From assembly GCA_009841335.1 (NCBI GenBank), contig VXLY01000067.1, positions 1-64,000 on the forward strand: a stretch of DNA of 64,000 bases, in the 5' to 3' direction. Below are positions 14,955 through 31,036 of the stretch, piece after piece. Below the pieces are notes generated by a model that saw only the letters and a program-made list of their open reading frames with translations, ran no database searches and was not told the origin of the DNA. The number at the start of each line of letters is the position of its first letter. The first letter of the stretch is position 1. Source of the stretch: Rhodothermaceae bacterium (GTDB lineage: Bacteria; Bacteroidota; Rhodothermia; Rhodothermales; Bin80). The position numbers and the translations under genes were made by a program.

Positions 14955-15960
14955 GTGCGCGTGCAATAGACTCCACGGCGGTGTCGATATCCGTAGAGGA
15001 CACATCTCTGTGTACGGTAGCCCGCATTGTAGACGGTCCAACGGGCACCATAGCGACTCCTTCGGAATGGATGTGTTTTAGCAGAGGACCTATCGGTTGT
15101 CTCCTCAGATTGACGAGTACGATGTTTGTTTCAGGAGGGCGTACATCAAGGCCAGCCAGTACGGCCAGTCCTTTTGCCAGATGGCGGGCATTGGCATGAT
15201 CCTGCTCCAAATCTCCGATGTTGTGTTCCAAGGCATACAGGCCGGCTGCTGCTAGGACCCCCAGTTGTCGCATGCCTGCTCCGAGCTCTTTTCGACGCCG
15301 ATGCGCACGCTCAACGGTTTCTGCTGTACCGGCAAAGACCGATCCGACTGGCGCGCCGAGCCCCTTCGATAGACATACAGTGACCGTGTCAAAGGGAGCC
15401 GCATAGTCCTTTACTGGAATGCCTGTTGCGACAGAGGCATTCCACAATCTAGCACCATCAAGATGGCAAGACAGTCCGCGGCTGTGCGCATAGCCCGCCA
15501 GATCTTTCAGTTCTGGGAGCGGAAAAAGCAGTCCACCGGCTATATTAAGTGTATTCTCAAGGCACAAAAGAGCGGAGCGGGACTCCCAGTAATGTCCGTG
15601 TCTTAACGCACCGTGCAACTGCTCCTTGGTGAACCTGCCCTCCTGACCTTTGATGGGATGTAGTGTAACCCCGCACAAGCTACTGGCTGAACCAGATTCA
15701 TAGTTGAAAATGTGACTCTGCCGCTCAAGAATTACTTCGTCCCCGGGGCGGGTGTGAACGTAAATACCCAGTTGATTCCCCATCATGCCCGAGGGTACAA
15801 AGAGGGCAGCCTCTTTGCCGAGCATAGAGGCAACTGTTTTCTGCAACGCGATGGCTGTTGGGTCTTCTCCGAACACATCGTCTCCTACCTCAGCTGCCGC
15901 CATGGCACGACGCATACCCGGAGAGGGGTGTGTAACCGTGTCACTGCGCAGGTCAACCAT
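14941..15960 (-). CDS. ltaE: Low-specificity L-threonine aldolase
   Basis: A 339-residue fold-type I PLP enzyme cleaving L-threonine or L-allo-threonine to glycine and acetaldehyde. It begins with the characteristic [17 protein letters not shown] and contains [21 protein letters not shown] (Asp and Arg contacting PLP) and the Schiff-base Lys in [12 protein letters not shown] (residue 199). It is translationally coupled to greA through a TAATG overlap at 15960, so greA and ltaE are probably one transcript with the upstream NlpC/P60-like gene. Its 3' end overlaps the convergent FAH gene by 14 bases. Confidence 0.95.
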
Positions 15961-16436
15961 TATCCATCCCGCGTGATTTCCAGGATTTTCAAACGCAGCT
16001 CCCCTGCGGGCACCTCAACAACGGCCTCGTCTCCCGTGCTTTTACCAAGGAGTCCTTTTCCAATTGGACTGGTAATGGAGATCAGCCCCCTGGATACATC
16101 TGCTTCCGGTGCAGAAACAAGTTTTACGGCTTTCTCCCTTTCTGTACGCAAGTTTATGTAGCGCACGGTTGACAGTATGCGGGCTGTTGAGGTGTCGACC
16201 CGTTCCTCGTCAATCAGACGCGCGTTAGCCAAGGTTTCCTGCATTTGGGCAATACGCGCCTCGAGCTTTCCCTGCGCCTCCTTGGCGGCATCATACTCAG
16301 CGTTTTCCGATAGATCACCATGTGAACGCGCATCTGCTATCTCGCCCGAGATGCGTTTGCGGTCTACCGTACGAGCGTGATGGAGATCTTTCTTGAGTTT
16401 CTTGAGGGCTTCTTCAGTTAGATAAACAACGGCCAT
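15960..16436 (-). CDS. greA: Transcription elongation factor GreA
   Basis: A 158-residue protein that rescues backtracked RNA polymerase by stimulating transcript cleavage. The N-terminal coiled coil contains [12 protein letters not shown] and the diagnostic acidic tip [18 protein letters not shown], whose Asp and Glu act in the polymerase channel. The C-terminal FKBP-like domain ends with [27 protein letters not shown], the conserved GreA close. The stop overlaps the ltaE ATG, and the NlpC/P60-like gene ends 21 bases upstream. Length and motifs are standard. Confidence 0.97.
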
Positions 16437-16457: not shown

Positions 16458-17024
16458 CTACCATCCCACGCGTCGTCTGGTGGGGCGGGATGGTCGTTCC
16501 TCTGGTGTGGCAGGAGTGGATACCAAGGGTTCGCCTAAAACACGTCGGGCGGCCCAGTAGGCTCCATTCCAGTAGGGGTCGTCCAGTCTTGCAATGGATA
16601 CTCCATCATCTGGCCAGGAATGCACAAACTCCCGAGAACCAAGATAAATCCCTACATGCCGCGGCATACTTGTAGGTCGGAAGCATACAATATCCCCAGG
16701 TATGAGAGATGAGCGCGGGATCTCTTCTCCAAACCCCAGTTGTCGTGCAGTAGAATGCGGAAGGGATATTCCTAATACCTGGTCAGCAAATACCAAAACG
16801 AGTCCTGGAGCATCTATCCCGGATCGGGAACTGCCACCCTCGAGATGAGGAGTACCTTGCCACGCAGTTGCCAGTGTGCGCAACTCGGACTCAATAGCTG
16901 CCGAGGGTATAGCATCGGTCGTCGAAACCGTGTCCGTTGGTGTGACGAGGGCCTGCGGAGCATAGCAGCCCGCAAGACAAACCACACCGATCAAGACGAT
17001 GAATACATACGTAGAACGATACAT
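16458..17024 (-). CDS. NlpC/P60-family lipoprotein lacking the catalytic Cys (MepS-like pseudoenzyme)
   Basis: A 188-residue lipoprotein: signal peptide ending in the lipobox LAGC (Cys20), then an NlpC/P60 domain at about residues 55-165. In MepS/Spr-type murein endopeptidases the nucleophile sits in GIDCSG; here the codons GAT GCT CCA GGA encode GIDAPG, so Cys becomes Ala and the next Ser becomes Pro. The two His-bearing motifs, RHVGIYLG and EFVHSW, are retained, as are LPHSTARQ and LIPGDIVCF. The fold is therefore probably intact, but thiol hydrolysis should be impossible. It may bind peptidoglycan or regulate another hydrolase. It heads a leftward transcript with greA and ltaE. A rich RPSRPTRRR tail ends the protein. 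Confidence 0.88.
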   Translation of the reverse strand: MYRSTYVFIVLIGVVCLAGCYAPQALVTPTDTVSTTDAIPSAAIESELRTLATAWQGTPHLEGGSSRSGIDAPGLVLVFADQVLGISLPHSTARQLGFGEEIPRSSLIPGDIVCFRPTSMPRHVGIYLGSREFVHSWPDDGVSIARLDDPYWNGAYWAARRVLGEPLVSTPATPEERPSRPTRRRVGW

Positions 17025-17142: not shown

Positions 17143-17661
17143 ATGCCGTACCCGGAGCACTTTGTATCCCCAATGCGTCAGGAGCTTACTCGACTGGGAG
17201 TTGAGGAGTTGAAAACTGCCGCGGATGTTGACACTGCGTTTGATATGGGTTCAGATCAAACCCAGCTTCTAGTAATCAATTCTGTATGCGGGTGTGCAGC
17301 AGCTATGGCGCGTCCAGCTGTTGCCTTGGCAATGCAGCACACAACAAAGCCGGATCGGGTAACGACTGTATTTGCCGGACAGGATCTTGAGGCAACCGTG
17401 CGTGCACGTGATCACTTGGTTGGTATTCCACCTTCCTCCCCCTTCATGGCCCTCATCAAGGGCGGAGATGTAGCGTACGTAATCGAACGGCGGCACATTG
17501 AGGGACGTAGTGCTCAGGCTATCGCGCTGGATTTGGTTGGAGCATTCGACCGATTTTGTGGAACAGACACTACGGCGGAGGATGGCCCGGAAAGTCCTGA
17601 AACCATGGGCAGCCACGCGGAGGATCCGATGTCCTCGTCATTCCGTTCGATTATCCGCTGA
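17143..17661 (+). CDS. BrxA/BrxB-family bacilliredoxin
   Basis: A 172-residue protein of the YphP/YqiW (bacilliredoxin) family. The redox motif is CGC in INSVCGCAAAMARP, and the family features FAGQDLEAT and IPPSSPFMALIKGG follow. In Bacillus these proteins remove bacillithiol from S-bacillithiolated proteins; Bacteroidota homologues are commonly present too. The last ~30 residues (ESPETMGSHAEDP...) run beyond the conserved domain and are low in predicted structure. The gene is divergent from the NlpC/P60-like gene and is followed by a perfect hairpin at 17744-17777 shared with the convergent gene. Confidence 0.92.
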   Translation: MPYPEHFVSPMRQELTRLGVEELKTAADVDTAFDMGSDQTQLLVINSVCGCAAAMARPAVALAMQHTTKPDRVTTVFAGQDLEATVRARDHLVGIPPSSPFMALIKGGDVAYVIERRHIEGRSAQAIALDLVGAFDRFCGTDTTAEDGPESPETMGSHAEDPMSSSFRSIIR

Positions 17662-27541: not shown

Positions 27542-29002
27542 TCAGTTGTAGCGCTGGACCAGTGAGTTCACAAATGATTCCTGGATCGAGTGAATGGGGC
27601 TGTGACGGCCGTGGAAATGATTCGCAAAAATCACGAAAGCCAACATAGCCCCATCTTCCCGCATTACGTACCCCGCAAGAGCGCTCACATTTCCAAGGGA
27701 TCCCGTCTTGGCACGGACGCGCCGGAATCCAGCCGCATTCCCTGTGAATCGATACTCAAGGGTTCCGTCCTTCCCGCCGACAGCCAATGAAGTCAAAAAG
27801 GATTCTCTGACGCTAGTGTCGGGATGCAGTGCCATATATCGGAGCAGTTTCATGGTCATTGCAGGCGTTACCAGGTTTTTCCGGGAAAGACCAGAGCCAT
27901 CCACCAGTTGGAGTCTGGAAGTGTCAATTCTAGCTGCGTCATACGTTCGCATGGCAGCAGCTACTCCCATAGCGGCTGAACCGGGCTCAGAATCTTCTTC
28001 CAGATCCGGGTACTCAACCCCCAGCGTTTTCAGCAAGTGCTCGGCATAAAGATTGTGGCTCTCCTTGTTTATGGTGGCAACCAACTCGGACAGCGGAGCG
28101 GAAGTATGCCGTGCGACTACGCGGGCATTCTGATAATCAAGTGCAGTCGCCAGACTATCTACATCAACGGATTTTCCCCGGACAAGAATACCCCGGGAAT
28201 TCAGTAAAGTCCGCAGCCCGTGAACGAAATAAAGCGTTGGATTGTGAACGGACAGCTCTTCGGGGTCAGAATATCCAAGCGGAACCGCACTCGAAATTGT
28301 GATATGATTTGAATTGGGCTCACGCGCATGTCCTTCTTCAAGTTCTTGTCCACGGGGAAGGGTCACCGACCGGTTGTGGAAAATGAAATAATCCATCAGT
28401 TCAGGCGTGACAGCTAACTGGCCTGGTGTGCCGGGCTGGGTTGGATGCACCTCCACTTCCACAATGGCGTCGTAGAAAGTCAGTCCACTGACCTGCGGGG
28501 CGTAACCGTATACAAGATCGTCCCAGCTCCAGTCAGCGCCAAGTGGAATGTCATCAAACGCGTTATCGTCCCCAATCACATGGCCGCCTATTTCGTGTAT
28601 TCCAAGAGCGAGTAAAGAATCTGCAAAGGCATTGAACAGGTCCATGTGATCCGGGCCTGGGGCGCCGGTGGAGGGATCGCCCGCCCCTCGTACGACCAAG
28701 TTTCCTTGCAGTGCATGGGAAATCTGTGGACCGTCCGCATACAGCTGAGTAACATAGCGGTAGTCGGGGCCTAGTTGATCCAGTGCCGCTGCAGTTGTGA
28801 ACAGTTTCGTAACTGAAGCAGGCATAAAACTATGCTCAACATTACGCATGAAGAGTGTGTCTCCCGTGGATACTTCTGTAACCATGGCACCCCACCATGT
28901 GTAAGGATGGACATCAAGGATGGAGTCAAGTACACTTTGTGCTCGACACACACCGATTGAGAGTACGAACGATACAGCAAGGCAGGTTACAAATTGTGGC
29001 AT
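27542..29002 (-). CDS. dacB: D-alanyl-D-alanine carboxypeptidase/endopeptidase (PBP4, class C)
   Basis: A 486-residue penicillin-binding protein of the S13/PBP4 family that trims or cleaves peptidoglycan cross-links. It has a signal peptide (VTCLAVSFVLSIGVCRAQ), the active-site SxxK in SVTK (Ser63, Lys66), SHNLYAEHLLK (the SxN-type motif) and KTGSL near the C-terminus. The long insertion between SxxK and SxN is normal for the family. The frame is open to 29044, but the signal peptide starts at the ATG at 29002. It follows mreC by 13 bases, so it appears to be the third gene of the mreB-mreC cluster, where mreD or PBP2 would be expected in other bacteria. Confidence 0.93.
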   Translation of the reverse strand: MPQFVTCLAVSFVLSIGVCRAQSVLDSILDVHPYTWWGAMVTEVSTGDTLFMRNVEHSFMPASVTKLFTTAAALDQLGPDYRYVTQLYADGPQISHALQGNLVVRGAGDPSTGAPGPDHMDLFNAFADSLLALGIHEIGGHVIGDDNAFDDIPLGADWSWDDLVYGYAPQVSGLTFYDAIVEVEVHPTQPGTPGQLAVTPELMDYFIFHNRSVTLPRGQELEEGHAREPNSNHITISSAVPLGYSDPEELSVHNPTLYFVHGLRTLLNSRGILVRGKSVDVDSLATALDYQNARVVARHTSAPLSELVATINKESHNLYAEHLLKTLGVEYPDLEEDSEPGSAAMGVAAAMRTYDAARIDTSRLQLVDGSGLSRKNLVTPAMTMKLLRYMALHPDTSVRESFLTSLAVGGKDGTLEYRFTGNAAGFRRVRAKTGSLGNVSALAGYVMREDGAMLAFVIFANHFHGRHSPIHSIQESFVNSLVQRYN

Positions 29003-29015
29003 TGTATGGGGACTG

Positions 29016-29840
29016 CTAATTATTTGAAAGGGACTCGAGTACAATTCCTGCGGAGTCCGGTCGATTCAGGATAACGAACGCAAAGTGCGCGGTACTAAGG
29101 GGTGCGGCAGGGGTCACATTAATCTGCCAGTAATTACTGCCTGCCTGGCGATTAGACTCAAGGACAGTACCAATGGGCATATTCGGAGGAAATATCCCAC
29201 TGGCCTCATGTGTAACTACGCGCTGTCCTTGCTGAACATCTGCGCTAACGACAATTTCTTTGAGCTCCAGCACGTCGGGCTCATTGCTTCCCCCTGAGAT
29301 GATCCCTATGACGCGAAGAGTATCAATCATAGCAGGCACATGAAACTGCGAGTGGAGGTGCGGCAACACGGTGCTGTAGTTACGACTGACATCAATCACA
29401 CGCCCCAGAATTCCCAAGTGACTGACAACGGCCATGTTGACCTCCACGCCGTCGACACTGCCGACATCAAGGGTGAAAAAGTTCGTTGTCCCGAACGGTT
29501 CGCGTGCGACGATGCGTGCGGCCATGGTCTCGAGACCACTGTTATTCTTCCAATCCAGGGCCTGGCGCAGAACTTGATTCTCGAGATCCACAACACGCAA
29601 CCGGGCCAACTCACTGGTATGTCTGAGATGGGCATCTCTGAGCGTTTGATTTTCATTAAAGGCGCGCAGCGCCATTGCAGCCCAAGCCATTCGGTATTCA
29701 ACTGTACCAGCAATTTGTAATGCTTGACTACGAACCCCTCGCATGAGTGGCCGATTAGCATTGGTCATAACAATGAGCGAGACTATCAGCAATGCGGACA
29801 AAAGAGCATAATCGCGCAGACGGTACCACAGGTCAATCAT
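29016..29840 (-). CDS. mreC: Rod shape-determining protein MreC
   Basis: A 274-residue protein of the elongasome: one N-terminal membrane helix (ALLSALLIVSLIVMT), a coiled coil at about residues 55-95, then a periplasmic beta domain. Typical pieces are VVDLENQVLRQALDWK, ARIVAREPFGTTNFFTLDVGS, MAVVSHLGILGRVIDVS, HSQFHVPAMI and GIFPPNMPIGTV. It couples MreB filaments to cell-wall synthesis. It lies 122 bases after mreB and is followed directly by the PBP4-like gene rather than mreD. Confidence 0.93.
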   Translation of the reverse strand: MIDLWYRLRDYALLSALLIVSLIVMTNANRPLMRGVRSQALQIAGTVEYRMAWAAMALRAFNENQTLRDAHLRHTSELARLRVVDLENQVLRQALDWKNNSGLETMAARIVAREPFGTTNFFTLDVGSVDGVEVNMAVVSHLGILGRVIDVSRNYSTVLPHLHSQFHVPAMIDTLRVIGIISGGSNEPDVLELKEIVVSADVQQGQRVVTHEASGIFPPNMPIGTVLESNRQAGSNYWQINVTPAAPLSTAHFAFVILNRPDSAGIVLESLSNN

Positions 29841-29962
29841 ACTATCAGGAGGTTTGAGCCATCAACAGTGTGGTGCCCACCTTTACAGGCATAATTTTTC
29901 TCGGCGTGCGTGACATCGGGTATCCAGCCATCTGGAGCATGCCCCGTTGTCAATCATTCGGC

Positions 29963-30973
29963 CTAGAGCAAGATGTCGGAGTACGCTGGTACGTTTTCCA
30001 GAACCTTGCCGGTTCCACGTGCCACGGCGGTGAAGGGGTCATCTGTCGTGTATACGGGAAGATCAACACGATTACGAATAATAACATCCATTCCTTTCAG
30101 GAGGGCGCCTCCACCGGTTAGCATGATGCCCCGTTCAAGGATATCTGCTCCCAGTTCCGGGGGTGTCGCTTCAAGGCATGCCATAACAGCCGATGTGATG
30201 TTACTGACGGTCGCGCTGATTGCAGTGCGCACATCCTCGGACGTGATCGTATGTACTTTCGGCATGCCGCTGCTCGAGTCCTGTCCGCTGATGAACAGCT
30301 CTAGTTCGGGTTCCATAACGATCGCGCTGCCGACCTCTCGTTTAATCCGCTCAGCAGTGCGCTGTCCGATGATCAGGTTGTGATAATATTTGAGGTAGGC
30401 TAAAATGGCCGCATCAATCTCGTTCCCTCCGGTACGTATCGATTGATCTATTACGATGCCGTTGAGTGCGATGACCGCGATTTCGGTTGTGCCTCCCCCG
30501 ATGTCCACGATCATATTTCCAATGGGCTCATGGACTTTGAGGCCAATCCCGATAGCCGCCGCCATGGGCTCCGCGATCAGATGCACTTTCCTTGCACCGG
30601 CATGCTCAGCACTGTCGCGGACCGCCCGCTTTTCAACTTCTGTTGTTCCGCTGGGAATGCAGATGACCATCTGCCGAATCGTTTTCAACCATCCGGTCTG
30701 GACTTTTCTAATCAGACCACGGATGAGTTGCTCAGCCAACTCAAAATCGGCGATAACCCCGTCCTTGAGTGGATGCACAGTTTCAATCTTGCGATGTGTC
30801 TTTTCGTGCATTGGCAATGCATCATTGCCAATGGCGAGTACTTTGTTGGTTTGGCGGTCAACTGCGACGATACTGGCTTCGCTAAGGACAATACCCTGCC
30901 CCTTCACGTAGACTAATGTATTGGCCGTACCAAGATCCACGGCTACGTCGGTATTCAGACTGTAGAATGGCAT
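29963..30973 (-). CDS. mreB: Rod shape-determining protein MreB (bacterial actin)
   Basis: A 336-residue actin homologue that organises lateral cell-wall growth under the inner membrane. ATP-binding signatures are [20 protein letters not shown] (phosphate 1), [17 protein letters not shown] (phosphate 2) and [17 protein letters not shown] (adenosine), with [15 protein letters not shown] and [12 protein letters not shown]. The frame runs 16 codons further upstream, but the family starts at the MPFYSLNTD Met. It is downstream of purH by 63 bases and heads the mreB-mreC-PBP4 group. Confidence 0.97.
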
Positions 30974-31036
30974 GCGGGTGCGCTTTCCAGAAAAACCAGC
31001 GGGACGAGACTTAAGATACACTTCTGTAGTTGGTTA

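Follow-up and report, generated by a model that had tools for sequence, protein, structure and literature searches.

The locus described here raises the question of what a wall-associated lipoprotein of the MepS type does once the nucleophile of its active site is gone. Its gene lies in a window of 64,000 nucleotides from a Rhodothermaceae bacterium (GenBank assembly GCA_009841335.1, contig VXLY01000067.1, positions 1 to 64,000), where it occupies 16458..17024 on the minus strand and encodes, from an ATG start, a protein of 188 amino acids. A preliminary description of the window had read this protein as a MepS-like lipoprotein that lost its catalytic cysteine and became a pseudoenzyme. We consider it probable that the protein, the sole NlpC/P60 protein of its family, is an in-place descendant of an active MepS-like lipoprotein and has been kept for a non-catalytic job.

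Protein architecture and active site

The protein starts with a signal peptide that ends in the lipobox L-A-G-C (16965..16976, minus strand), of which Cys20 is invariant in 15 aligned family members (L046, whose contig begins inside the gene, was omitted from this alignment). A variable linker leads to the NlpC/P60 domain (residues 41-163; 16536..16904, minus strand), and a second variable linker separates the domain from the C-terminal RRVGW (16461..16475, minus strand). A Pfam scan found nothing besides NLPC_P60 (PF00877), which was matched over its full length (profile positions 1-105 of 105, residues 57-161) with 72.7-74.1 bits against a cut-off of 23. The best phmmer match was E. coli Spr/MepS (6.5e-26). 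The AlphaFold2 model had pLDDT values of 94-98 over the domain block, and its best match among solved structures was MepS 7v6u (Z 24.0, rmsd 1.8, 127 residues; TM 0.93 normalised by the target), which predicts for the window protein the fold of E. coli MepS. L097, a divergent named member, was also modelled, with a confidence of 93-97 over most domain blocks, so this protein has evidently retained the fold as well.

When aligned by phmmer, the window protein has its GIDAPG at the site of GIDCSG in E. coli Spr (2k1g), with Ala72 at the position of MepS Cys68 and Pro73 at that of the next serine (GCT CCA, 16806..16811, minus strand, preceded by GAT for the aspartate). The rest of the Cys-His-His triad is present, namely His123 (16656..16658, minus strand) and His135 (16620..16622, minus strand), and the motifs RHVGIYLG and EFVHSW are intact, in agreement with the preliminary description. 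The same substitution inactivates the E. coli enzyme, Spr-C68A having no endopeptidase activity (PMC7774453). The window protein is almost certainly without peptidase activity.

The same locus with and without the cysteine

The gene is flanked downstream by greA (15960..16436, minus strand) and upstream by a divergent gene for a BrxA/BrxB family bacilliredoxin (brxA; 17143..17661, plus strand), both assigned by NCBIfam and synteny. In a family set of 16 genomes from 6 genera, which included the window's own genome and 10 species of the host genus, greA followed the lipoprotein gene in the same direction at all 16 loci, and brxA lay upstream at 15, the contig of the sixteenth ending before it. 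Most of the Cys-bearing loci of the order whose flanks were available also had the order brxA-nlpC-greA. This common synteny indicates that it was an active orthologue, and not a spare copy, that was disarmed in place. No partner gene is visible near the lipoprotein gene, since greA, brxA and an aldolase gene are housekeeping genes. In eight relatives, a further frame close to the lipoprotein gene likewise ends in ...MGW. One of these frames, L007:2556-3266, lies past greA, and its product resembles a monofunctional transglycosylase; the others are in L012, L015, L017, L019, L022, L025 and L050.

Each of the 16 family genomes contained exactly one PF00877 match, with an open frame in all. The nucleophile position was occupied by Ala in 13 of them, by Pro in two and by Gln in one, and by Cys, Ser or Thr in none. 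The motif D-A-P was found in 12 members (the 10 of the host genus, G010 and G012); the others had D-A-S (G013), D-P-V (G011), G-P-V (G014) and D-Q-I (G015). The Ala-Pro pair that the preliminary description proposed to follow in orthologues is therefore conserved in 12 of 16 members, while the cysteine is missing throughout the family. In the host genus the pair is written with four Ala codons (GCT, GCC, GCA and GCG) and three Pro codons (CCA, CCC and CCT), so it has been kept through synonymous change. As the genomes are mostly metagenome bins, one might suspect a mistake in sequencing or assembly, or a mutation confined to one strain. Such an origin is practically out of the question, and chance and recent loss are rejected as well: the loss recurs with differing codons in 16 of 16 assemblies, including the one-contig chromosome of G011, and all 10 species of the genus, each assembled separately, have Ala-Pro.

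A hydrolase that works by another chemistry, through a relocated nucleophile or a metal, would explain why both triad histidines are invariant in 16 of 16 members, which is odd for residues without a job. This explanation is very unlikely. In no member is the nucleophile position taken by Cys, Ser or Thr, the following Ser is gone in 15 of 16, and Spr-C68A is inactive with the cysteine alone changed. The window copy does have a cysteine at position 114 (16683-16685), where its nearest relatives have Phe; it is unique among 15 aligned members and thus an isolated substitution, with no sign of a nucleophile that has shifted position.

Cys-bearing orthologues, which the preliminary description had named as evidence of an error or a recent loss, were seen only outside the family, and the loss is thus old and fixed family-wide. 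A PF00877 search of the order Rhodothermales gave matches in 90 of 114 genomes, 16 of which were those of the host family. The main copy was D-C-S in all 74 remaining genomes with a match (read from loci in two batches of 34 and 40). Among the 80 genome_contigs loci found by a family profile, 69 had D-C-S and the other 11 all belonged to the host family. Several of these 11 loci carry bin names (CAR, RHO, bin80) that we take to denote sponge metagenomes, and the host family is probably sponge-associated. The PF00877 match was missing in 24 of the 114 genomes (e.g. G028, G038 and G047), several of which are 99% complete bins. Gene loss is therefore possible in the order, and the persistence of the dead protein in every one of the 16 family genomes counts for a non-catalytic role.

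No second NlpC/P60 gene was found by PF00877 across the 16 family genomes (bins 89-99% complete, which may miss genes), including the 97.5%-complete genome of the window, where another active copy had been proposed as a point to check; this profile detects NlpC/P60 enzymes and not a replacement from another family. Elsewhere in the order, the second NlpC/P60 genes of G023 and G044 (L180 and L181) are circularly permuted, with the His half (HVGIYL, FFHAS) ahead of the DCSG half in one frame. An expansion of M23 peptidases as compensation was not seen, with 5-7 matches per family genome versus 4-13 in others. More S13 peptidases as compensation can be rejected, the opposite being observed: one copy in each of the 16 family genomes versus at least two matches in 33 of 43 others (those of G030 being two pieces of one frame). 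Against the reading that we favour, the M23 and S13 counts reveal no obvious replacement or regulated wall enzyme, just as no partner gene is visible at the locus. The window itself contains an S13 peptidase, MreC and MreB in a row (27542-31021), at a distance of about 11 kb from the gene of the lipoprotein. The preliminary description had counted two disarmed exported enzymes in the window; the S13 enzyme (27542-29044) does not qualify as the second by the measure of its motifs, as it still has SVTK, SHN and KTG. Loss of MreB-type elongation as the cause of the change is likewise rejected, because every one of the 16 family genomes has MreB.

Constraint and remodelling of the old active site

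Over the domain, the host genus gave a median dN/dS of 0.075 (10 of 45 pairs, dS < 1.5), or 0.071 when all pairs that gave a finite dS (20 of 45) were used. In the same genomes dN/dS was 0.071 for greA and 0.089 for brxA, whereas the linker and tail of the lipoprotein gave 0.38 (36 of 45 pairs); four Cys-bearing groups gave 0.10, 0.26, 0.17 and 0.45 (three to six pairs each), and all these values are rough because many pairs were saturated at synonymous sites. All of them indicate strong constraint, and the domain is as constrained as the neighbouring greA, a core transcription factor gene. The protein thus has the mark of a non-catalytic NlpC/P60 protein, a replaced nucleophile in a conserved and selected protein, and the designation pseudoenzyme is well supported. 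The absence of a domain match in 24 of the 114 order genomes could be taken to mean that the family protein is a relic decaying toward loss. This is highly improbable, given a dN/dS of about 0.075 that equals that of greA, a frame open in 16 of 16 genomes and the newly fixed residues described below; decay as a pseudogene is rejected by dN/dS.

The residues around the old active site have changed as well. In YkfC, gamma-D-Glu recognition is assigned to Tyr226, Trp228, Asp237 and Ser239, and Arg255 belongs to the network of the active site (PMC2954226). By motif and spacing, these residues would be equivalent to positions 60, 62, 71, 73 and 90 of the window protein. Position 60 remains His or Tyr, like in active copies, and position 71 remains Asp in 15 of 16 family members. 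Position 73 is a residue other than Ser in 15 of 16, and position 62 has changed from Trp, Phe, Leu or Tyr to Glu, Asp, Ser or Pro, also in 15 of 16 (8 Glu, 1 Asp and 1 Ser in the host genus). The Arg of LPR[ST]T at position 90 is replaced by His in all 10 members of the genus (His90; 16755..16757, minus strand). The other six family members keep the Arg, and so do all 34 order copies compared. Trp137 (16614..16616, minus strand), two residues past His135, is found in 12 of 16 family members, versus Ser in 30 of 34 active copies. Most of 12 members share a set of newly fixed features, namely Leu61, Glu62, Pro73, Trp137 and the 117-121 loop. As these changed residues are held constant, the cleft appears to have been rebuilt and not simply abandoned, which suggests a new ligand or partner.

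These changes bear on what the cleft may hold. By analogy with mycobacterial RipD, it is plausible that peptidoglycan binding has been retained. However, 15 of 16 members have changed substrate-recognition residues, which argues against a mere retention of stem-peptide binding. The foremost alternative to simple binding of peptidoglycan is therefore that the emptied active site became a pocket for a new ligand, such as a metal, a small molecule or a non-wall peptide, and that the link to murein is gone. The replaced equivalents of YkfC Ser239 and Trp228, the Arg to His change in the genus and the newly fixed residues speak for this explanation, as do the four histidines (60, 90, 123 and 135) that the genus has at or near the old site together with position 62 and Asp71. 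Against it, the pocket residues are placed near the old site by homology, His60 is found in active copies too, and His90 and Glu62 are not universal in the family. Overall, we regard this explanation as unlikely.

Another conserved feature is the C-terminus. A Gly-Trp end, sitting behind a fast-changing linker, was found in 16 of 16 family members, in 46 of 74 other copies of the order and in none of 61 copies outside the order; a terminal Trp was found in 54 of the 74 non-family order copies. Being common to active and dead copies, the tail hints at a partner that is independent of catalysis, and it is possibly a short binding or degradation motif. In the mechanism that we favour, an ancestral murein endopeptidase lipoprotein would have lost its nucleophile and been retained for a non-catalytic job, in which the old cleft and the conserved tail would hold a ligand or partner. 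It is fairly likely that the protein is a lipid-anchored, wall-facing scaffold or regulator, and that the cleft and tail hold stem peptides of peptidoglycan or else an enzyme of the wall. A more speculative and doubtful form of this idea is that the cleft is a new conserved binding site (in the genus, a four-His pocket with acidic residues) that is read out through the ancestral Gly-Trp tail. If this were true, what selection preserved would in fact be the half of MepS function that does not depend on catalysis.

The family members also suggest an order for these changes. In a free protein tree (117 columns), 15 members form one side of a branch with support 97/87, and G013, whose bin is the poorest in quality (89% complete, 8% contaminated), lies outside them. 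A single clade of all 16 is compatible with the data (AU p 0.565), the constrained tree scoring higher by 2.69. G013 belongs to the same family by genome classification, has the order brxA-nlpC-greA at its locus, and has lost the cysteine alone. The simplest reading is one early loss of the cysteine followed by change of the pocket, while two or more independent losses may have occurred. The intermediate suggests two steps: the cysteine would have been lost close to the root of the family, from a pocket that was unchanged in other respects (D-A-S, as in G013), and the pocket would then have been rebuilt, with D-A-P, Glu62, Trp137 and lastly His90.

Comparison with known systems

Non-catalytic NlpC/P60 proteins are already known as a kind. 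In the literature searched, which took in few subscription journals, we found none naming Rhodothermales together with NlpC, and no description of a family-wide disarmed lipoprotein among work on inactive or pseudoenzyme NlpC proteins. Like E. coli MepS/Spr, the window protein is a lipoprotein with a single NlpC/P60 domain and the His-His pair (solved MepS chains share 35-40% identity with it and match at Z 20.6-24.0), and its Cys to Ala change is that of the dead C68A mutant. It differs in having no nucleophile, in Pro for the next Ser and in changed pocket residues, and its score for the MepS equivalog NF008096 of NCBIfam was below the cut-off (100.2 versus 186). From the C68A data, DD-endopeptidase activity is expected to be absent.

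M. tuberculosis RipD (Rv1566c) is an NlpC/P60 protein with an Ala-Ser-Glu triad that has no hydrolase activity and binds peptidoglycan, and its genome encodes five or more NlpC/P60 proteins (PMC6628586, PMC12067865). Both proteins have Ala for the catalytic Cys, and the structures 4jxb/4lj1 match the window protein with Z 16.0 over 114 residues. However, RipD lost both histidines, whereas the window protein keeps both, is a lipoprotein and is the sole copy; the RipD model NF033743 gave 31.7 against a cut-off of 215 (NCBIfam). The degenerate LytM factors, which include EnvC, NlpD and ActS, are likewise dead wall hydrolases that have been retained, but they have an unrelated fold (M23), and an amidase partner is not indicated here. 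Such degenerate factors serve as regulators of other hydrolases (PMC8416486).

The closest comparison is with the active lipoproteins at brxA-nlpC-greA in other Rhodothermales, which are orthologous by position and sequence and many of which share the Gly-Trp end. They differ from the window protein in their intact D-C-S, found in every order genome with a match outside the family. The usual source of a pseudoenzyme is a redundant paralogue; in this family the orthologue was disarmed where its active ancestor stood. Within one order, the locus holds active orthologues in some lineages and dead ones in others, and an intermediate that lost only the cysteine is still alive. This constitutes a clean natural experiment, in which one can test whether lipoproteins of the MepS type also do non-catalytic work that is less dispensable than the cleavage of peptides.
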